Positions 5,582-14,291 of a DNA stretch of 64,000 nucleotides are shown here, piece by piece (the stretch's first letter is position 1; the number at the start of each line of letters is the position of its first letter). The translations under genes and the position numbers were made by a program. Below the pieces are notes generated by a model. The model made no database searches. It saw only the letters and a program-made list of their open reading frames with translations, and was not told the origin of the DNA. This DNA comes from Methylobacterium sp. Leaf108 (GTDB taxonomy: Bacteria > Pseudomonadota > Alphaproteobacteria > Rhizobiales > Beijerinckiaceae), in the NCBI RefSeq assembly GCF_001423265.1, contig NZ_LMND01000023.1, positions 1 through 64,000 of the forward strand, in the 5' to 3' direction.

Positions 5582-6412
5582 ATGATGCAGCAGGATCAAG
5601 CGAAGGCCGAGACCGGCCGGCGCGTACCCGAACCGCCGATCTACGGTCCCGACGGCTTTGCCGGCATGCGCCGCGCGGGCCGGCTCACGGCCGAGGCCCT
5701 CGACCTCCTGATGGAGGCGACGGTGCCAGGGGTGACCACGGAGGCCCTCGACAGGCTGGCCTACACCTTCGCGATGGACCACGGCGCCTACCCGGCCTCG
5801 CTGCTCTACCGCGGCTATCCGAAGTCGATCTGCACCTCGATCAACCACGTGGTGTGTCACGGCATCCCCAACGACAAGCCCCTGCGCGAGGGCGACATCG
5901 TCAACCTCGACATCTGCCTGATCCTCGACGGCTGGCACGGCGATTCGAGCCGGATGGCCTACGTCGGCGAGGTGCCGCGCAAGGCCGCGCGCCTCGTCGA
6001 GATCACCTACGAATCGCTCATGCGCGGCATCGCGGCGATCAAGCCGGGCGGCACCACCAGCGACATCGGCCGGGCGATCCAGACCTTCGCGGAGGCCGAA
6101 CGCTGCTCGGTGGTGCGCGATTTCTGCGGCCACGGCCTCGGTCGCAGCTACCACGACGCGCCGACCATCCTCCATTACGTCGAGCCGAGCTACGACGTGA
6201 CCCTGCGGCCGGGACAGTTCTTCACCATCGAGCCGATGATCAACCTCGGACGGCCCGCGGTGAAGATCCTCTCCGACGGCTGGACGGCCGTGACGCGGGA
6301 CAGGTCGCTGTCGGCCCAGTTCGAGCACACGATCGCGGTGACCGAAACCGGGGCCGAGATCTTCACCCTGTCGCCCACGGGGATGCACAAGCCGGTCGAC
6401 ATCGGCGCCTGA
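5582..6412 (+). CDS. map: Methionine aminopeptidase, type I
   Basis: Removes the initiator methionine from nascent proteins; a di-metal enzyme. 276 residues. The family segments are clear: the substrate/metal histidine region [20 protein letters not shown], metal ligands in [12 protein letters not shown] and [25 protein letters not shown], and [10 protein letters not shown] near the end. There is an N-terminal extension of about 25 residues before the catalytic fold, common in alphaproteobacteria. Two adjacent ATG codons occur at 5582 and 5585. The gene is followed 11 bp later by radC. Confidence 0.97.
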
Positions 6413-6423
6413 GGCGGGTGGCG

Positions 6424-7143
6424 ATGAAGCCCGGCCTGCCCTCCGGCCGCGATGCCCCCGCCGCCGAGGACCCGCAGCATTACCTCGGCCACCGCGAACG
6501 CCTGCGCGCCCGCTTCGCGCAGGCCGGGGCGGATGCGCTGCCCGATTACGAACTCCTGGAGCTCGCCCTTTTTCGCGCCATTCCGCGGCGGGACGTGAAG
6601 CCGCTGGCCAAGGCGCTGATCCGGCGTTTCGGCAGCTTCGCCGAGGTGGTGAGCGCCGAACCGGCGCGGCTGTCCGAGATCGAGGGCGTCAGCGCCGGCG
6701 TCGTGGCCGACCTCAAGCTCATCGAGGCGGCGGGCCACCGTCTCGCGCGCGGGGCCATCGCGGCCCGGCCGCTGCTGTCGTCGTGGGCCGCCTTGATCGA
6801 ATACTGCCGGGCGACCATGGCCTTCGCGCCCCGCGAGCAGTTCCGCGTGCTCTTCCTCGACAGGCGCAACCATCTCATCGCCGACGAGGTCCAGGGTCGC
6901 GGCACCGTCGACCACACCCCGGTCTATCCCCGCGAAGTGGCGCGGCGGGCGCTGGAGCTCTCCGCCACCGCCATCATCCTCGCCCACAACCATCCCTCCG
7001 GCGATCCGACGCCGTCGGCGGCCGACATCCGCATGACCCGCGAGATCGTCGCCGTGCTCGATCCCCTCGGCATCGTCGTCCACGACCACGTCATCCTCGG
7101 GCGAGATGGCCATGCCAGCCTCAAGGGTCTCAAGCTGATCTGA
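6424..7143 (+). CDS. radC: RadC family JAB/MPN-domain protein
   Basis: 239 residues from ATG 6424. An N-terminal helix-hairpin-helix-like part ([20 protein letters not shown], then EIEGVSAG) is followed by the C-terminal JAB1/MPN metalloprotease-like domain with the metal signature [19 protein letters not shown]. Despite the name, a role in recombinational repair is not established for the family; many members are annotated simply as DNA repair proteins. Starts 11 bp after map, so probably co-transcribed. The frame is open further upstream into map, but homology begins at [10 protein letters not shown] shortly after this ATG. Confidence 0.93.
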
Positions 7144-7353
7144 CAATCCCGTGGCCCCGGCCGGGTCGCCGGAACGCGGCGGCCCGGGCCGGGTTCATCC
7201 TCGGCGGGACAGGTTGTGGTGGCGCCCGGCGGGCGCTCGGCTAGGATGAAACCAACCGTACCGCCGGCCCTTCTCCGGCGGCGTCGCGCACCGGCCGCCG
7301 CCCTCGGATGGCGCGCCTCTTGCGACGAAGCGGGCGATCAAGGGGAGGCGCGA

Positions 7354-8793
7354 ATGGCGCTCAACGCGTACGACGAGATGAACGGCTTTGCCGTGGACGG
7401 CATGAGCCCAGCGGCGGTGCGCGAAGCCTATGGCAGCCTCAAGTCCTGGCTCGAGACGACGCCGCCGGAGCATTTCAACACCCGCCGCAGCCAGGCCGAA
7501 CTGCTGTTCCGGCGCATCGGCATCACCTTCGCGGTCTACGGCGCCAACGAATCCACCGAGCGGCTGATCCCGTTCGACATCATCCCGCGGGTGATCACCA
7601 AGCCGGAGTGGGGCTTCCTGGAGCGCGGTCTCAAGCAGCGCGTCACCGCCATGAACGCCTTCCTGAAGGACATCTACAGCGCCCAGGAATGCATCAAGGC
7701 CGGCATCATCCCGGCCGACCTCGTCTACCGCAACCCGCACTACAGGATGGAGATGCGCGCCTTCTCGGTCCCGCACGACCTCTACGTCCAGATCGCCGGC
7801 ATCGACATCGTGCGGACCGGCGAGAACGACTTCTTCGTGCTCGAGGACAACGCCCGCACCCCGTCCGGCGTCTCCTACATGCTCGAGAACCGCGAGGTGA
7901 TGCTGCGCCTCTTTCCGGAGCTGTTCTCGCGCCATCGCGTGGCGCCGGTAGAGAACTATCCCGACGCCCTGCTCGCGACCCTGAACAGCCTCGCGCCATC
8001 GACCGCGACCCGCGACCCCACCGTGGTGCTGCTCACCCCGGGGCGCTACAATTCGGCCTTCTACGAACACTCGTTCCTGGCCGACAAGCTCGGCGTCGAC
8101 CTCGTGGAGGCCTCCGACCTCTTCACCAAGGACGACGTCGTCTACATGCGCACCACCGAGGGGCCGCGCCGGGTCGACGTGATCTACCGCCGCCTCGACG
8201 ACGACTTCCTCGACCCGCTGGTGTTCCGCCCCGATTCGGTGTTGGGCGTGCCCGGCCTGATGAACGCCTACGAGCGCGGGACAGTGACGCTGGCCAACGC
8301 GGTCGGCACCGGCATCGCCGACGACAAGGCGGTCTACAGCTACATGCCGGACATCATCAAATTCTTCACCGGCGAGGAACCGATCCTGCACAACGTGCCG
8401 ACCTATCGCTGCCGCGAGAAGGAGGCCTTCGCCTACGTCATGGACAACCTCGCCGAACTGGTGGTGAAGGAGGTCAACGGCTCGGGCGGCTACGGCATGC
8501 TGGTCGGCCCCCATGCCACCAAGCGCGAGATCGAGGATTTCGGAAAGAAGCTGCGGCACGCGCCGGACGGCTTCATCGCCCAGCCGACCCTGGCGCTGTC
8601 GACCTGCCCGACCTTCGTGGCCTCCGGCGTCGCCCCCCGCCACGTCGACCTGCGCCCCTTCGTGCTATGCGGCGCCGACGAGATCCGCATCGTGCCGGGC
8701 GGCCTCACCCGCGTCGCGCTGAAGGAGGGCTCCCTCGTGGTCAACTCCAGCCAGGGCGGCGGCACCAAGGATACCTGGGTGCTCGACGCCTGA
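7354..8793 (+). CDS. Circularly permuted ATP-grasp type 2 protein (Anbu operon)
   Basis: 479 residues from ATG 7354, preceded by AGGGGAGG at good spacing. It belongs to the circularly permuted ATP-grasp family (formerly DUF404/DUF407). Typical segments are SRQAELLFRR-like NTRRSQAELLFRRIGITFAV, ERLIPFDIIPRVI, EDNARTPSGVSYMLENREVM and VVKEVNGSGGYGMLVGPHAT. Family members are predicted to form an amide or peptide-type bond using ATP; the substrate is unknown. It is the first of four genes whose order matches the known Anbu gene neighbourhood, so a role in a peptide-tagging or peptide-turnover system is inferred. The 210 bp upstream presumably hold the operon promoter. Confidence 0.92.
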   Translation: MALNAYDEMNGFAVDGMSPAAVREAYGSLKSWLETTPPEHFNTRRSQAELLFRRIGITFAVYGANESTERLIPFDIIPRVITKPEWGFLERGLKQRVTAMNAFLKDIYSAQECIKAGIIPADLVYRNPHYRMEMRAFSVPHDLYVQIAGIDIVRTGENDFFVLEDNARTPSGVSYMLENREVMLRLFPELFSRHRVAPVENYPDALLATLNSLAPSTATRDPTVVLLTPGRYNSAFYEHSFLADKLGVDLVEASDLFTKDDVVYMRTTEGPRRVDVIYRRLDDDFLDPLVFRPDSVLGVPGLMNAYERGTVTLANAVGTGIADDKAVYSYMPDIIKFFTGEEPILHNVPTYRCREKEAFAYVMDNLAELVVKEVNGSGGYGMLVGPHATKREIEDFGKKLRHAPDGFIAQPTLALSTCPTFVASGVAPRHVDLRPFVLCGADEIRIVPGGLTRVALKEGSLVVNSSQGGGTKDTWVLDA

Positions 8794-8898
8794 CCGACAC
8801 CGCCCCACGGGCGCACACGACGCCATCGGCTGCCTCCCGGCGAGGCAGTCCACTCCAGACTCCGGCCACCCTCCGCGCCGGCCCGCTTCAGGACACCC

Positions 8899-9843
8899 AT
8901 GCTCTCCCGGACCGCCGATAACCTGTATTGGCTCTCGCGCTACGTCGAGCGGGCGGAGTTCGTCGCCCGCATCCTGGACGCCGCGCATCGCCTCGCCGCC
9001 CTGCCCTCGAGCTACGGCGGCGGCGAGACCAACGAGTGGGCCTCGGCGCTGGCCTCGGCCGGCGACCCGGAGGTGTTCAAGCCACTCTACGGCGGGGTGA
9101 ACGAGGCCACGGTCTGCAACTTCCTGGCCTTCAGTCCGCACAACCCGTCCTCGATCCGCTCCTGCATCGAGACCGCCCGCGAGAACGCCCGCAGCGTCCG
9201 CACCGCGCTGACCTCCGAGATGTGGGACGCGATCAACGGCGCCTGGCTCGAGCTGCGCAACTACGAAGGCCGCGACCTCAACCGCGAGGAGTTCTCGCAC
9301 TTCCTCGACTGGGTGAAGGGTGTCTCGCTGGCCTTCGACGGCTCGGCCTATCGGACCATGCTGCGCAACGACGCCTATTGGTTCACGCGCCTGGGCACCG
9401 CCATCGAGCGCGCCGACAACACCGCCCGCATCCTCGACGTGAAGTACCGCATCCTCCTGCCGGACACCGAGCGGGTCGGCGGCAGCCTCGACTACTTCCA
9501 GTGGACCACGATCCTGCGCGAGGTCTCGGCCTTCAACGCCTACCATTGGGTCTACCGCGAGAGCGTCAAGCCGCTGCTGGTGGCCGACCTCCTGATCCTC
9601 AACCGGCAGATGCCGCGATCCCTCGCCAATTGCTACGGCATGCTCGTGGAGCACCTCGATCTCGTCGCCGACGCCTACGGCCGGCGCGGGGCCAGCCAGC
9701 GCCTGGCCAGCAACACCCTCGCCCGGCTCGAAGGCGAGAACATCGAGCGGGTGTTCAATTCCGGCCTGCACGAGTTCGTCACGGCCTTCATCGCCGAGAA
9801 CAATCGCCTCGGCGCGGCGGTCATCGAGCAATATCTGGTGTAG
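8899..9843 (+). CDS. Alpha-E domain protein (Anbu operon)
   Basis: 314 residues, all-helical alpha-E family (formerly DUF403). The characteristic N-terminus MLSRTADNLYWLSRYVERAE is present, as are ENARSVRTALTSEMWDAING and FTRLGTAIERADNTARILDV. Biochemical function is unknown. The family nearly always occurs beside the circularly permuted ATP-grasp gene and is sometimes fused to it, which suggests a complex or consecutive steps. Starts 105 bp after the ATP-grasp gene and 37 bp before the transglutaminase-like gene. No signal peptide or membrane segment. Confidence 0.92.
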   Translation: MLSRTADNLYWLSRYVERAEFVARILDAAHRLAALPSSYGGGETNEWASALASAGDPEVFKPLYGGVNEATVCNFLAFSPHNPSSIRSCIETARENARSVRTALTSEMWDAINGAWLELRNYEGRDLNREEFSHFLDWVKGVSLAFDGSAYRTMLRNDAYWFTRLGTAIERADNTARILDVKYRILLPDTERVGGSLDYFQWTTILREVSAFNAYHWVYRESVKPLLVADLLILNRQMPRSLANCYGMLVEHLDLVADAYGRRGASQRLASNTLARLEGENIERVFNSGLHEFVTAFIAENNRLGAAVIEQYLV

Positions 9844-9880
9844 GGTCGAGGCCTGAAGCCCGCGCGACCAAGGTTCCCGC

Positions 9881-10708
9881 ATGCGCATCCGCGTCTTCCA
9901 CGAGACCCAGTACACCTATGAGCAGCCGGCCCGCGGACTGATCCAGGTGCTCCGGCTGCGGCCGCGCGACCACGACGGGCAGTACGTGCGCCGCTGGCGC
10001 ATCGAGCCGTCGGTGGATGGCCGCATCAGCGAGCGCGAGGACGGCTTCGGCAACATCGTCCATTGGTTCACGGCCGACGATCCCGCCGATGCCCTCACCA
10101 TCCGGGTCACCGGCGAGGTCGACACCAACGAGATGCACGGCATCGTCCGCGGCACGATCGAGCGCCTGCCCAACGTGTTCTACCTGCGTGACTCCGATCT
10201 CGCGATGGCCAACCCCGAGATCCAGGCCTTCGCCAGGACCGTGGCCGCCGACGGCGATCCGACGCCCCTGTCGCAGCTCCATCGCCTGATGGCGGCCGTG
10301 AACGAGACCGTCGCCTATACGCCGGGACCGGCCAGTGCCAGCACCACCGCGGCCCGGTCGTTCGAAGCCGGCAAGGGCGTCTGCCAGGACCATGCCCACA
10401 TCTTCATCGCCGCGGCCCGGTTCCTGGAGATCCCGGCCCGCTACGTCTCGGGATACTTCCACCGGGGTGACGGCGTCGTCGACCAGGAGGCCGGCCACGG
10501 CTGGGTCGAGGCCCTGGTGCCGGATCTCGGCTGGGTCGGGTTCGACCCGGCCAACGGCATCGCCACAACCGAGGCGCACATCCGCGTCGCGATCGGTCTC
10601 GATTACCTGGGCGCGGCCCCGATCCGCGGCAGCCGCATGGGTGGCGGGACGGAAACGCTCGCCGTGACCTTGCGCGTCGAGCAGGCACAGGCTTCCGTCC
10701 AGTCCTGA
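9881..10708 (+). CDS. Transglutaminase-like cysteine protease/amidase (Anbu operon)
   Basis: 275 residues. The N-terminal bacterial transglutaminase-associated domain (MRIRVFHETQYTYEQPARGL onward) is followed by a transglutaminase-like papain-fold domain. The catalytic triad is visible: Cys168 in GKGVCQDHAHIFIAAAR, His206 in AGHGWVEALVPDLGW and Asp222 in GFDPANG. Bacterial relatives are predicted peptidases or amidases rather than true crosslinkers. No signal peptide, so cytoplasmic. Third gene of the Anbu cluster, 37 bp after the alpha-E gene and 41 bp before the Anbu gene. The family can hydrolyse the kind of bond that the ATP-grasp could make; that pairing is inference. Confidence 0.92.
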   Translation: MRIRVFHETQYTYEQPARGLIQVLRLRPRDHDGQYVRRWRIEPSVDGRISEREDGFGNIVHWFTADDPADALTIRVTGEVDTNEMHGIVRGTIERLPNVFYLRDSDLAMANPEIQAFARTVAADGDPTPLSQLHRLMAAVNETVAYTPGPASASTTAARSFEAGKGVCQDHAHIFIAAARFLEIPARYVSGYFHRGDGVVDQEAGHGWVEALVPDLGWVGFDPANGIATTEAHIRVAIGLDYLGAAPIRGSRMGGGTETLAVTLRVEQAQASVQS

Positions 10709-10749
10709 TTCCGGTATCGCGCCGGAGCGTTTGAGGGGAAAACCGGACC

Positions 10750-11499
10750 GTGACCTACTGCGTCGGGCTCCTCGTCGAGGACGGGCTCGTGATGATCGCC
10801 GATACCCGCACCAACGCGGGGCTCGACAACATCTCGACCTATCGCAAGCTCCACCACTTCAACGTGCCGGGCGAGCGCGTGATGATGCTGGCCTCGGCCG
10901 GCAACCTCTCCATCACCCAGTCGGTGCTGAGCATGCTCGCCGAGGGCGTCGACGACAAGGAGAGCGAGGCGCCCCAGACCATCCTGCAGCAGCCGACCAT
11001 GTTCAAGGCGGCCCAGCTCGTGGGGCGGGCGATCCGCCGGGTGCGGGCGATCGAGCGCGAGGGGTTCGAATCGGCCAACCTGCGGATGGACGTGTCCTTC
11101 CTGTTCGGCGGCCAGATCGGCGCAGAGCCGATGCGGTTGTTCATGATCTACTCGGCCGGCAACTTCATCGAGTGCAGCCGCGACGCGCCGTTCCTGCAGG
11201 TGGGCGAGCACAAGTACGGCAAGCCGATCCTCGACCGGGCCGTGAAATACGAGACCGACCTCTACGACGCCCTCAAGGTCGGCCTGGTCTCGATGGATTC
11301 GACCATGCGCTCCAACCTCGGGGTGGGGTTGCCCATCGACATCGCGGTCTCGCGCTCGGGCTCCCTCGACACCGAGGTGAACTACCGGATCGAGGCCGGC
11401 GAGAGCTATTTCCACGACCTGCGCGAGCGCTGGTCGGCGGCCCTGCGCGCCGCCCATCGCGCGATCCCGCGCCCCCCCTACGGCCCGTCGGGGCGGTAG
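10750..11499 (+). CDS. anbu: Proteasome-type peptidase Anbu
   Basis: 249 residues from GTG 10750. It belongs to the Ntn-hydrolase proteasome beta-subunit superfamily, Anbu (ancestral beta subunit) branch, distinct from HslV. Removal of Met would expose Thr at the N-terminus (MTYCVGLLVEDG). The conserved ADTRTNAGLDNISTYRK contains the Asp and Lys expected of the catalytic centre, and SMDSTMRSN carries the later conserved Ser. Anbu proteins from Pseudomonas and Hyphomicrobium form open, split-washer rings; their physiological substrate is unresolved. No partner ATPase gene is nearby. Last of the four clustered genes; an 82-bp gap separates it from the cyclase gene. Confidence 0.92.
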   Translation: MTYCVGLLVEDGLVMIADTRTNAGLDNISTYRKLHHFNVPGERVMMLASAGNLSITQSVLSMLAEGVDDKESEAPQTILQQPTMFKAAQLVGRAIRRVRAIEREGFESANLRMDVSFLFGGQIGAEPMRLFMIYSAGNFIECSRDAPFLQVGEHKYGKPILDRAVKYETDLYDALKVGLVSMDSTMRSNLGVGLPIDIAVSRSGSLDTEVNYRIEAGESYFHDLRERWSAALRAAHRAIPRPPYGPSGR

Positions 11500-11581: not shown

Positions 11582-12841
11582 ATGCTGGATCGTGGCCCGC
11601 CCCAACCGCCGCCGCCGACCGCCGATGCGGACGGGTCCGAGGCCAACGACGTTCCCTTCGGGGCGCTGCAGGCATGCGTCGCCCTGCGCGACTGGCTGCT
11701 TAGCGAAGGCGCGCGCCTGCCCAAGGCCGACGACCTCCTGGCGGGGCTGTCCGAGCGGCTGATCGACCTCGACGTGCCCATCGACCGGGCCACCACCGCG
11801 ATCGATACCCTGCATTCGGAGTATTCCGGGATCGGCCGCTACTGGACCCGCAAGGACGGCCCGTCGGTGCGGCTGTTCCCGCACGGCGAGGCCTCCGACA
11901 AGGCCTATCGCGAGAGCCCGTTCCTGACGGTCCACGAGACCGGCGAATGGCTCGTCCTCGACCTCGCCGAAACGCCCGAGGACCGCTACGCAGTCCTCCC
12001 CGAACTGAAGGCGGACGGCTACACCCACTACATCGTCGCGCCGCTGTTCTTCACCAACGGCACCCGCAACGGCATCACCTTCGCCACCCGCGCGCCGGAG
12101 GGGTTTCGCGACGAGGACATCGCGATCCTGCGCTTCGTCATGCCGACCCTGGCGGCGGTGATGGAGATGCGGATCGTCAACAAGACCCTCGACCAGGTGC
12201 TGCGCATCTACGTCGGCGACGAGCCTCATACCGCCATCCTTGCCGGGGACATCCGCCGGGGCCAGGTGCGCCGCATCCGCTCCGCGATCCTGTTCGCCGA
12301 CATGCGCGACTACACCCGCATCTCCGCCGACATGACGCCCGAGGAGGCGGTGACGCTCCTCAACATCTTTTTCGATTGCCTCGTCCCGGCCATCGAGCGG
12401 GAGGGCGGCGAAGTCCTGAAGTACCTCGGCGACGGCCTTCTGGCGATCTTCCGCGAGCCCGGCGACGACCTCGGCAGTGCGGCCAAGGGCGCCCTCATGG
12501 CGGCCCAGAGCGCCCTGTCGGCCCTCGACGAGGCCAACGGCCTCGGCCGATTCGCCACCCCGGTGGCGGCCGGCATCGCCCTGCACCACGGCGAGGCGGC
12601 CTATGGCAACGTCGGCTCGGGCGCCCGGCTCGACTTCACGGTGATCGGTCGCGACGTGAACCTCGCCAGCCGGCTGGCCAAGCTCAACCGGCTGCTCGGG
12701 GAGCCGCTCCTGATGTCGAAGCCCTTCGTCGACTTCCTCTGGGGCGACCCGGAACCCCTCGGTCTTCATGCCCTGGACGGATTTCCCGAACCGATGGCGG
12801 TCTATCGCCCGGCCCGGCCGCTTTCGGCCCGAGGGGATTGA
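11582..12841 (+). CDS. Class III adenylate/guanylate cyclase
   Basis: 419 residues. The C-terminal half is a class III nucleotidyl cyclase domain: ILFADMRDYTRISADMTPEE near residue 235 has the first metal-binding Asp, and EREGGEVLKYLGDGLLAIF has the second metal Asp and the dimer interface; DFTVIGRDVNLASRLAKLN follows. The N-terminal ~200 residues look like a GAF-type sensory domain without membrane segments, so a soluble enzyme is likely. Product cAMP is more likely than cGMP, but substrate residues were not checked against structures. It follows the Anbu operon by 82 bp; a functional link is possible but unproven. Confidence 0.88.
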   Translation: MLDRGPPQPPPPTADADGSEANDVPFGALQACVALRDWLLSEGARLPKADDLLAGLSERLIDLDVPIDRATTAIDTLHSEYSGIGRYWTRKDGPSVRLFPHGEASDKAYRESPFLTVHETGEWLVLDLAETPEDRYAVLPELKADGYTHYIVAPLFFTNGTRNGITFATRAPEGFRDEDIAILRFVMPTLAAVMEMRIVNKTLDQVLRIYVGDEPHTAILAGDIRRGQVRRIRSAILFADMRDYTRISADMTPEEAVTLLNIFFDCLVPAIEREGGEVLKYLGDGLLAIFREPGDDLGSAAKGALMAAQSALSALDEANGLGRFATPVAAGIALHHGEAAYGNVGSGARLDFTVIGRDVNLASRLAKLNRLLGEPLLMSKPFVDFLWGDPEPLGLHALDGFPEPMAVYRPARPLSARGD

Positions 12842-12871
12842 CCACGACGCGCGGCGGGACCACATCAGGGT

Positions 12872-12983
12872 CGTTCCAGGGAGATCCCCGACAAGGGGCT
12901 GAGACACCGATGAGCCCGTCCTTCGCGGACGGGCGGCGCGGAAATCCTTCGAACCTGAACCGGCTCATACCGGCGTAGGGATT
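12872..12983 (+). promoter_or_regulatory. TPP riboswitch (thi box)
   Basis: All conserved parts of the thiamin pyrophosphate aptamer are present. P3 is CCCC/GGGG (12886-12898), followed directly by CTGAGA (12899-12904). P2 is AGGGA (12878-12882) with TCCTT (12945-12949). The 3' half reads ACCTGAAC then CCGG-loop-CCGG and GCGTAGGGA (12974-12981). An accessory GCCCGTCC/GGACGGGC hairpin (12914-12934) is inserted on the P2-P3 side. It lies 91 bp before thiO and would lower thiOSGE expression when TPP is plentiful. The expression platform, probably occlusion of the thiO ribosome-binding site, is not resolved. Confidence 0.93.
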
Positions 12984-13073
12984 GGACCGCGGGCCCCGCG
13001 ACAACGGCCCGGCTCGCTCGCCGAGACGCGAGCGACAGGACACCAGTCTCCGCCGGTCGATGCGGAGAGAGTT

Positions 13074-14291
13074 GTGGCGGACCTGGCGACCATCATCGGA
13101 TCACGCAGACCGACCGGGGAATCCTGGCCGGGCGTCAGCCTACCGCAGAGCACCGACGTCATCGTGGTCGGGGCCGGCGTCGTCGGCCTGTCCATCGCCT
13201 GGCGGCTCGCCGACGCGGGGCGGTCCGTGACGGTGCTGGAGCGATCCGAGGTCGGCGCCGGCGCGAGCCTGGCTGCCACCGGCATGCTGGCGCCCGCCGC
13301 CGAGCACGAGCCCGGGTCCGATCCGCTGCTGCCGCTCGCCCTCGACAGCCTCGCGCGCTGGCCGGCGTTTCGCGATGACCTGGAGGCGGCGTCCGGGATC
13401 GACATCGACTACCGCACGCAAGGCACCCTCGTTCTCGCCATCGGCCGCGACGAGGTCGAGCGCCTGCGCTTCCGCCACGACCTGCAGACACGCTCCGGCA
13501 TCCGGGCGCGCTGGCTCTCCGGCCTGGAGGTGCGCGAGCGCGAGCCGATGCTGCGCCCCGCCGTCACCGCCGGGATCCTGTGCGAGGACGACCACCAGGT
13601 CGATCCTCGCAAGGTGATGGCCGCGCTGATCCGCGCCTGCCGGGCCGCCGGCGTCGCCCTGGTGGCGCCCTGCCCGGCCCAAAGCCTCGACTGGGCCGGG
13701 GGACAGGTCCGCGGCGTCGTCACCGCGCAGGGGCGCATCGCCGCCGGGACGGTGGTCCTCGCCTCGGGCGCCTGGAGCGGCGAACGCGGCCTGCTGCCGC
13801 CGGAACTCGCGCTGCCGGTACGGCCGATCAAGGGTCAGGCGCTGGCGGTGAAGACCACGGCGCGCACCGGCACCCTCACCCACATGGTCTGGACCGAACA
13901 GGTCCACATAGCGCCCAAGGGCGACGGCGACCTCATCGTCGGCGCCACCGTGGAGGATTGCGGCTTTCGCGCCGGCCTCACCGTCGGCGGCCTCTATGCC
14001 CTGCTCGAAGGCGCCCGCCGCGTCCTGCCGGGGATCGAAGAGATGGAGATCGGCGCGGTCTGGAGCGGCTACCGCCCGACCTCGGACGACGACGCCCCCA
14101 TCGTCGACCGCCTGGCGCCCGGCCTCGTGGTCGCCACCGGGCACCACCGCAACGGCTACCTCCTGACCCCGGCCACCGCCGACGCGGTGACGGCCCTCGT
14201 CGACACCGGTGCGGTCCCGGACTTCGCCCGCGGCTTCGGCCTCGGGCGCTTCGAGGCGGCGCCTCGACCGGGCATGAGGGTTCCGGCATGA
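13074..14291 (+). CDS. thiO: Glycine oxidase ThiO
   Basis: 405 residues from GTG 13074, with GGAGAGA just upstream. FAD-dependent oxidase converting glycine to iminoacetate (dehydroglycine) for thiazole synthesis. The dinucleotide-binding motif VVGAGVVGLSIAWRLADAG starts near residue 32, and the DAO-family C-terminal segment is SGYRPTSDDDAPIVDRLAPG followed by GHHRNGYLLTP. The ~25 residues before the Rossmann fold are an ordinary extension. First gene of the operon under the TPP riboswitch; its stop overlaps the thiS start (ATGA). Presence of ThiO rather than ThiH indicates the aerobic route. Confidence 0.94.
   Translation: MADLATIIGSRRPTGESWPGVSLPQSTDVIVVGAGVVGLSIAWRLADAGRSVTVLERSEVGAGASLAATGMLAPAAEHEPGSDPLLPLALDSLARWPAFRDDLEAASGIDIDYRTQGTLVLAIGRDEVERLRFRHDLQTRSGIRARWLSGLEVREREPMLRPAVTAGILCEDDHQVDPRKVMAALIRACRAAGVALVAPCPAQSLDWAGGQVRGVVTAQGRIAAGTVVLASGAWSGERGLLPPELALPVRPIKGQALAVKTTARTGTLTHMVWTEQVHIAPKGDGDLIVGATVEDCGFRAGLTVGGLYALLEGARRVLPGIEEMEIGAVWSGYRPTSDDDAPIVDRLAPGLVVATGHHRNGYLLTPATADAVTALVDTGAVPDFARGFGLGRFEAAPRPGMRVPA

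Follow-up and report, generated by a model that had tools for sequence, protein, structure and literature searches.

The Anbu operon of a Methylobacterium genome: a conserved sigma-54 promoter-like site and recurrent loss of the transglutaminase nucleophile in relatives

What does the proteasome homologue Anbu do for a bacterium, and what do the genes beside it contribute? Anbu, which has no known substrate, figures in debates on the origin of the proteasome as a possible ancestor. Here we examine the Anbu operon of Methylobacterium sp. Leaf108, which lies in a stretch of 64,000 nucleotides (hereafter the window; G000:C23:1-64000 in our numbering, where G denotes genomes, C contigs and L loci) from a genome of 4.47 Mb in 35 contigs, whose closest named relatives are Methylobacterium. 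The operon is an ordinary, intact member of a known, unexplained operon type. Our tentative answer, which we hold at slightly less than even odds, is that it is a sigma-54-switched module that makes and breaks an amide bond under nitrogen scarcity, with a hydrolase step that can be transferred to a paralogous system. The most useful new fact is that the nucleophile of the transglutaminase is lost conditionally. The features concerned are the following.

7309 to 7323, plus strand: sigma-54 (-24/-12) promoter-like site TGGCGCGCCTCTTGC, recognised by pattern match and conservation, 30 base pairs (bp) before the ATP-grasp start codon
7354 to 8793, plus strand: circularly permuted ATP-grasp ligase, 479 amino acids (Pfam CP_ATPgrasp, E = 6e-164; 3n6x, E = 5e-198)
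8899 to 9843, plus strand: alpha-E protein, 314 amino acids, predicted to be all helical (Pfam Alpha-E, E = 3e-94)
9881 to 10708, plus strand: transglutaminase-like cysteine hydrolase, 275 amino acids (Pfam Bact_transglu_N and Transglut_core, E = 8e-23)
10750 to 11499, plus strand: Anbu, proteasome-like N-terminal nucleophile (Ntn) hydrolase, 249 amino acids, GTG start, Thr2/Asp18/Lys33 (solved Anbu sequences)

Open reading frames, together with Pfam and PDB sequence searches, bear out the first-pass annotation, which had described four adjacent genes on one strand. The start of the ATP-grasp frame at 7354 is an internal ATG within a longer frame. The Pfam Proteasome match of Anbu is slightly under the Pfam cut-off; in the PDB sequence search the protein aligns over nearly its whole length with five distinct solved Anbu-type sequences (E from 5e-78 to 2e-61), and the N-terminal Thr, Asp17 and Lys32 (counted from Thr1) correspond to T2, D18 and K33 here. 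Residue checks likewise upheld the N-terminal Thr of Anbu and the Cys168-His206-Asp222 triad of the transglutaminase, which is intact in the window copy. The operon was said to lack an unfoldase, and Pfam indeed found no unfoldase gene among the four genes and the scanned neighbours (map, radC, a cyclase gene and a thiO-like gene). The association was rightly described as known from comparative genomics, since the Anbu operon and its gene order had already been published. PADLOC gave no anti-phage defence match in the operon, and Rfam no known RNA element there at E <= 0.1.

We compared the operon with two sets of loci. The order set holds 80 loci from the 85 other genomes of the same order with an ATP-grasp orthologue, five short-contig or duplicate cases being left out; the named set consists of the best 80 of 587 confirmed places, is biased to close relatives and possibly overlaps the order set in species. 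A sample of genomes across the phylum overlaps the order sample, and related genomes are non-independent throughout. ATP-grasp, alpha-E, transglutaminase and Anbu genes follow each other in the same order on one strand in 61 of the 80 order loci, all with an ATP-grasp gene, and Anbu is found anywhere in the fetched region (approximately 8 kb) in 63. This recurrence in relatives means that the arrangement is not due to chance. The intergenic gaps are 105, 37 and 41 bp in the window, with family medians of 14, 16 and 60 bp.

Under which condition is the operon expressed? The site TGGCGCGCCTCTTGC agrees with the -24/-12 consensus (GG at -24, GC at -12, and their spacing) except at the fifth position. 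Sites were scored against a general sigma-54 consensus with weights, and the threshold of 8.3 was picked after the scores of the 80 order loci were known; scheme and threshold were then kept unchanged for the 80 named loci. The pattern alone is unremarkable, with a match in 26 of 100 shuffles of the window, and the site is credible because it is conserved in relatives, not from the single match. A site scoring at least 8.3 lies within 160 bp upstream of the ATP-grasp gene in 16 of the 80 order loci and in 35 of the 80 named loci. For the order set, control segments have such a site in 5 of 3747 cases on the same strand and in 10 of 4033 on the reverse strand, and for the named set in 31 of 6940, a rate of 0.1-0.5%. 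Nine of the 12 named Methylobacteriaceae loci (L115-L123) have a site scoring at least 7.7 approximately 30 bp before the gene. When the window is aligned with nine Methylobacteriaceae loci, chosen for having the site, the TGGC and TCTTGC blocks (-24 and -12) are invariant and the rest of the region upstream of the gene has diverged. The genome has a single copy of rpoN (E = 1e-65). Behind the other 17 pattern matches in the genome, the genes of seven were scanned with Pfam; four of these matches sit 25-35 bp before a recognisable gene, namely those for a branched-chain amino acid/urea-type ATP-binding cassette (ABC) substrate-binding protein and for two ABC ATPases, one PotA-like and one taurine/nitrate-like, and fliK. 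Because they score under the NCBIfam cut-offs, the transporter subtypes are tentative.

Nitrogen control of this operon type is already published, and what we add is its placement in the window and the test across relatives. Under nitrogen limitation, PP_2686-2688 of wild-type P. putida rise 11- to 15-fold (PMC7801951, Table 2), and PP_2685-2688 are described as likely under NtrB/NtrC (PMC7801951). In B. cenocepacia the DUF404/407-DUF403-transglutaminase cluster (ATP-grasp/alpha-E/transglutaminase) is down by log2 6.0-9.4 in an ntrC mutant and is listed among common targets of NtrC and sigma-54 (PMC5491218), and COG3484 is among the predicted sigma-54 targets of alpha-, beta- and gammaproteobacteria (PMC12316311). 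The conserved promoter hints at nitrogen shortage as the condition; we infer that sigma-54 acts at this site and that this organism responds here to a lack of nitrogen. A peptide-storage role, also suggested at first, is disfavoured, because the promoter is conserved, because nitrogen limitation raises and does not lower expression of this operon type in P. putida (PMC7801951), and because NtrC controls it in Burkholderia.

Which parts of the operon depend on which? An ATP-grasp orthologue is present in 86 of 121 order genomes (87 matches at E <= 1e-20, minus G089, which has a paralogue only) and Anbu in 76, all of them within the 86. Across the phylum, 131 of 249 genomes have the ATP-grasp gene (E <= 1e-100), 85 have Anbu and 83 have both, including G134, which matches Anbu at only 33% identity. 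The two remaining Anbu genomes are G205, which is 100% complete and gave no match to ATP-grasp, and G257, which is 74% complete, with a partial Anbu match and only an ATP-grasp paralogue. The reverse nesting fails: among the 86 order genomes that carry the ATP-grasp gene, ten gave no match to Anbu, and two of these (G023, G024) are fragmented assemblies. Alpha-E accompanies the ATP-grasp gene in 160 of 160 loci, at most 400 bp away on the same strand in 158. The nested presence of Anbu and the universal alpha-E therefore make ATP-grasp and alpha-E the core, and Anbu an accessory relying on that core. When outside the cluster, Anbu may be divergent next door (G019, G065, G101), far away on the same contig (G034, G076) or on another contig (G038).

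Some loci depart from the standard arrangement in their own ways. In L160, L178 and L151, Anbu closely follows alpha-E (28, 21 and approximately 140 bp), with no transglutaminase detected between them. In Methylorubrum thiocyanatum (L120:8548-14845), the transglutaminase and Anbu lie approximately 4.5 kb past alpha-E, and the operon seems to be interrupted by inserted DNA. A genome of 1.3 Mb (G054, locus L106) has kept ATP-grasp, alpha-E and transglutaminase genes and has no Anbu match; a sigma-54-like site (8.45) lies 102 bp upstream, in a stretch of 27% GC.

What kind of ligase forms the core? The AlphaFold2 model of alpha-E is all-helical, with a predicted local distance difference test score (pLDDT) of 89.8 and a predicted template modelling score (pTM) of 0.89; no solved relative of alpha-E was found, and no structural match in PDB or BFVD at E <= 0.001. 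A natural ATP-grasp/alpha-E fusion from L161 was modelled with pLDDT 80.1 and pTM 0.78. Its best match is 3n6x, followed by eukaryotic glutathione synthetases, the E. coli glutathionylspermidine synthetase/amidase and trypanothione synthetase. As far as these predicted structures go, the matches favour a small carboxylate joined to an amine over a large protein substrate. NasR was considered as a relative and rejected, its match to the fused model (E = 0.03) being too weak and NasR being absent among the 50 matches listed for alpha-E alone.

How constant are the active sites? E164, N166, K372, G378, G379 and G381 of the ATP-grasp protein are invariant in 161 of 161 sequences (the first three being assigned the roles that they have in glutathione synthetase), as are T2, D18 and K33 of Anbu in 115 of 115. 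Cys168 of the transglutaminase is replaced in 14 of 106 operon copies, by Pro in six, Ala in four, and Gly, Ser, Val and Asp in one each; the 106 are the window copy and those of 105 loci, each lying between alpha-E and Anbu. Of these, 103 retain His206 and 105 Asp222. The residues around the lost Cys align clearly in most cases, e.g., GVGQDLAHIF in Methylobacterium oryzihabitans versus GVCQDLAHIF in G117 of the same genus, while L071, L072 and L190 are more divergent around this position. Mapped onto a quick tree of the ATP-grasp proteins, the Cys state needs nine changes, at least six of them forced by the starred branches; we interpret these changes as losses. The fixed cycle with two kinds of hydrolysis that had been read from the enzyme chemistry thus does not hold for the family, in which the transglutaminase nucleophile is absent from these 14 copies and an Anbu match from the ten order genomes mentioned above.

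The loss of Cys goes together with a second system. Contig C31 of this genome encodes this paralogous system: a transglutaminase (TGase)-DUF2126 protein, an ATP-grasp protein fused to alpha-E, and another transglutaminase, with a Peptidase_Mx gene just upstream on the opposite strand. Of the 121 order genomes, 51 have DUF2126. Within the 80 named loci themselves it is present in 12, Anbu in 53 and both in two; the Anbu gene of L180 shares four bases with the TGase-DUF2126 gene. In the order set, DUF2126 is present in 9/9 Cys-less versus 27/53 other genomes (one-sided Fisher p = 0.005). For 44 held-out named genomes, in which DUF2126 had not been sought genome-wide until then, the figures are 5/5 versus 17/39 (p = 0.024), counting as present matches in pieces (G356, G357, G390) or partial (G370), two of which are in Cys-less genomes. 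Pooled, 14/14 stand against 44/92 (p = 1e-4, kinship ignored). We also simulated the losses on the tree, at a constant rate and without reversal; of 28,000 runs, 3932 were accepted because their numbers were similar, and a single accepted run placed every loss in DUF2126-positive genomes. In the DUF2126 protein, the Cys of the transglutaminase domain is retained in all 40 genomes examined of the 51, including seven of the nine Cys-less order genomes. As for genome size as a possible cause of the link, 18 of the 26 Cys-bearing order genomes without DUF2126 reach or exceed 3.7 Mb and are thus no smaller than the smallest Cys-less genome of the order. We met no mention of a link between Cys loss and DUF2126 in the available parts of the literature searched (Iyer 2009 being known through citing papers). 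A paper on membrane vesicles (PMC12096838) deals with another transglutaminase.

It is tempting to hypothesize that the Anbu and DUF2126 operons (the latter with TGase-DUF2126, fused ATP-grasp/alpha-E and TGase) are two arms of one nitrogen-starvation pathway with a substrate or product in common. In genomes with both arms, the Anbu-arm cysteine hydrolase could lose its nucleophile since the transglutaminases of the other arm would do the cutting, and the protein would survive as a non-catalytic subunit. We regard this as possible, though less likely than not. In the fused ATP-grasp/alpha-E paralogue, the E-x-N motif of the Anbu-operon enzyme is missing from all seven copies looked at (L003:6500-9019, L161:9260-11677, L182:10389-13073 and the partial L152, L153, L165 and L177), and the GGYG loop from the four in which that stretch was printed (L003, L153, L161, L165); judged by these motifs, the paralogue is possibly a non-catalytic ligase. 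A sigma-54 site common to the DUF2126 operon was sought and rejected: such sites are weak, in 2 of 40 at 8.3 and 7 of 40 at 7.7, with none in this genome.

The promoter and the nested presence of Anbu together make a ligase-centred module for nitrogen starvation the best reading. Sigma-54 polymerase would start from 7309-7323 and transcribe the four genes. The ATP-grasp protein, with alpha-E, would activate a small peptide-like carboxylate and join it to an amine, and the product would be cut by the transglutaminase-like cysteine hydrolase and by Anbu as a split-ring threonine hydrolase; the cutting may return usable nitrogen or clear blocked peptides. The cysteine-hydrolase step might pass to the transglutaminases of the DUF2126 system, which is present in this genome. 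The ligase chemistry on a small substrate, the direction of flux and the take-over by the paralogue are the more conjectural parts of this scheme.

Several observations weigh against it. In the whole genome the sigma-54 pattern gives 18 matches versus 23 for a backward control, hence no excess. No site reaches the 8.3 threshold in 64 of the 80 order loci and 45 of the 80 named loci, and a Methylobacterium metagenome-assembled genome (L124) and two Microvirga (L137, L138) lack one. An NtrC-type palindrome is not enriched upstream (15 of 80 order loci versus 14.7% of controls), the window having only matches with two mismatches; the consensus was the enterobacterial one, and the palindrome was rejected as a common upstream element. 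In a P. putida rpoN mutant, PP_2686-2688 are still induced 14- to 20-fold, and for Anbu (PP_2685) the wild type shows a rise of only 1.1-fold (PMC7801951, Table 2), so that we place less weight on a sigma-54-switched module and more on Anbu as a separate protease. With the Y. bercovieri proteins, pull-downs detected no complex and Anbu showed no peptidase activity (PMC6376114). Pairwise dN/dS (nonsynonymous to synonymous substitution rates) is 0.25-0.87 for five Cys-less transglutaminase pairs and 0.17-0.34 for seven Cys-bearing pairs, and mixed pairs have intermediate values; the alpha-E of one Cys-less pair likewise has a high value (0.75). The Cys-less proteins are thus under weaker constraint, with dN/dS still below 1, a pattern that both decay and a new role would produce. 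A test on independent pairs gave on average 3.7 pairs in the same direction and 0.0 in the opposite one (median p = 0.125), the test lacking power because too few pairs differ.

How do other explanations fare? The loss of Cys may be the simple decay of the least-needed gene, its association with DUF2126 reflecting shared ancestry and not a take-over. The raised dN/dS, the non-significant independent-pairs test and the three loci without a detected transglutaminase (L160, L178, L151), of which L178 belongs to a genome that gave no match to DUF2126, agree with this. Decay accords poorly with at least six forced changes on the tree, with transglutaminase frames of 254-311 amino acids in which His and Asp are nearly always kept, with the single simulated run that confined all losses to DUF2126-positive genomes, and with the held-out genomes. 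We consider it a serious possibility, though not the probable one. The published prediction of Iyer 2009 (as cited in PMC6376114 and PMC5666114) is peptide synthesis or tagging, in which the ATP-grasp protein, with help from alpha-E, would attach a peptide tag to proteins, the transglutaminase would cross-link or edit, and Anbu would untag or degrade. Two amide-bond enzymes beside a proteasome-like hydrolase, an ATP-grasp fold related to peptide-type ligases and the phosphate that the Y. bercovieri ATP-grasp protein releases from ATP (PMC6376114) speak for such a role; it appears unlikely, given that the pull-downs showed no specific interaction (PMC6376114) and that the Anbu and transglutaminase steps, missing as counted above, are not obligatory.

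Equally improbable in our view is that Anbu is a general starvation protease (Fuchs 2017, PMC5666114) and the other three genes neighbours with a separate metabolic role. Proteasome inhibitors do bind Anbu (PMC5666114), the gene lies away from the operon in G034, G076 and G038, and in P. putida it is hardly induced when the other three genes are (PMC7801951). An independent protease would not be expected to be nested within the presence of the ATP-grasp gene (76 of 76 order and 83 of 85 phylum genomes), the operon has no unfoldase gene, and no peptidase activity was measured (PMC6376114). If Anbu is instead an accessory of a nitrogen-switched ligase, the search for its substrate shifts to nitrogen-starved cells and ATP-grasp products. 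The conditional loss of Cys further yields a genetic prediction: single mutants and double mutants with the DUF2126 system should differ.

The neighbourhood of the operon offers some further observations. Directly upstream, in the same direction, are map (methionine aminopeptidase) and radC (5582-7143); in the two sets of 80, map is found in 15 order loci and 10 named loci, and radC in 19 and 11, respectively. Methionine aminopeptidase is the type of enzyme able to expose Thr2 of Anbu. Downstream, a GAF/class III nucleotide cyclase gene (11582-12841) begins 82 bp past Anbu on the same strand; as a fifth operon gene it was rejected, being seen in 0 of 80 order loci. The cyclase and thiO-like genes after Anbu span 11582-14291 on the same strand. 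In the close named relatives L115 and L116, both are on the opposite strand in reversed order, with a strong cyclase orthologue (85-86% identity) beyond thiO, so the segment looks as if inverted relative to the window; L164 has a weak orthologue. A thiamine pyrophosphate (TPP) riboswitch aptamer at 12869-12999 (50.7 bits, E = 4e-9, slightly under the Rfam gathering score of 54.3) lies upstream of the DAO-family oxidase gene at 13074-14291, which is thiO-like in appearance.

Finally, how does the operon compare with known systems? The E. coli glutathionylspermidine synthetase/amidase joins a permuted ATP-grasp ligase to a papain-fold cysteine amidase, which make and break one amide. Its ATP-grasp fold (PDB 2io7) is matched by the fusion model; in contrast, the window encodes separate proteins, with alpha-E and Anbu in addition. 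HslV/HslU and the 20S proteasome have the fold and the Thr/Asp/Lys site in common with Anbu (PMC6376114), whereas the Anbu operon has no AAA+ partner and Anbu forms a split-ring assembly in published work (PMC6376114, PMC5666114). In P. putida PP_2685-2688 and B. cenocepacia I35_5080-5083, the ATP-grasp, alpha-E and transglutaminase genes are tied to nitrogen limitation. In the window a sigma-54 site was found upstream and no NtrC palindrome; induction in P. putida persists in the rpoN mutant, and the published account of the Burkholderia cluster includes a large transglutaminase protein and not Anbu. The published Anbu operon (Valas and Bourne 2008; Iyer et al. 2009; Fuchs et al. 2017, PMC5666114; Piasecka et al., PMC6376114) has the same four genes in the same order, the same catalytic residues and likewise no unfoldase gene. 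We found no difference from it in gene set, and to it we add the evidence on the promoter and on the dispensability of single parts across the family.

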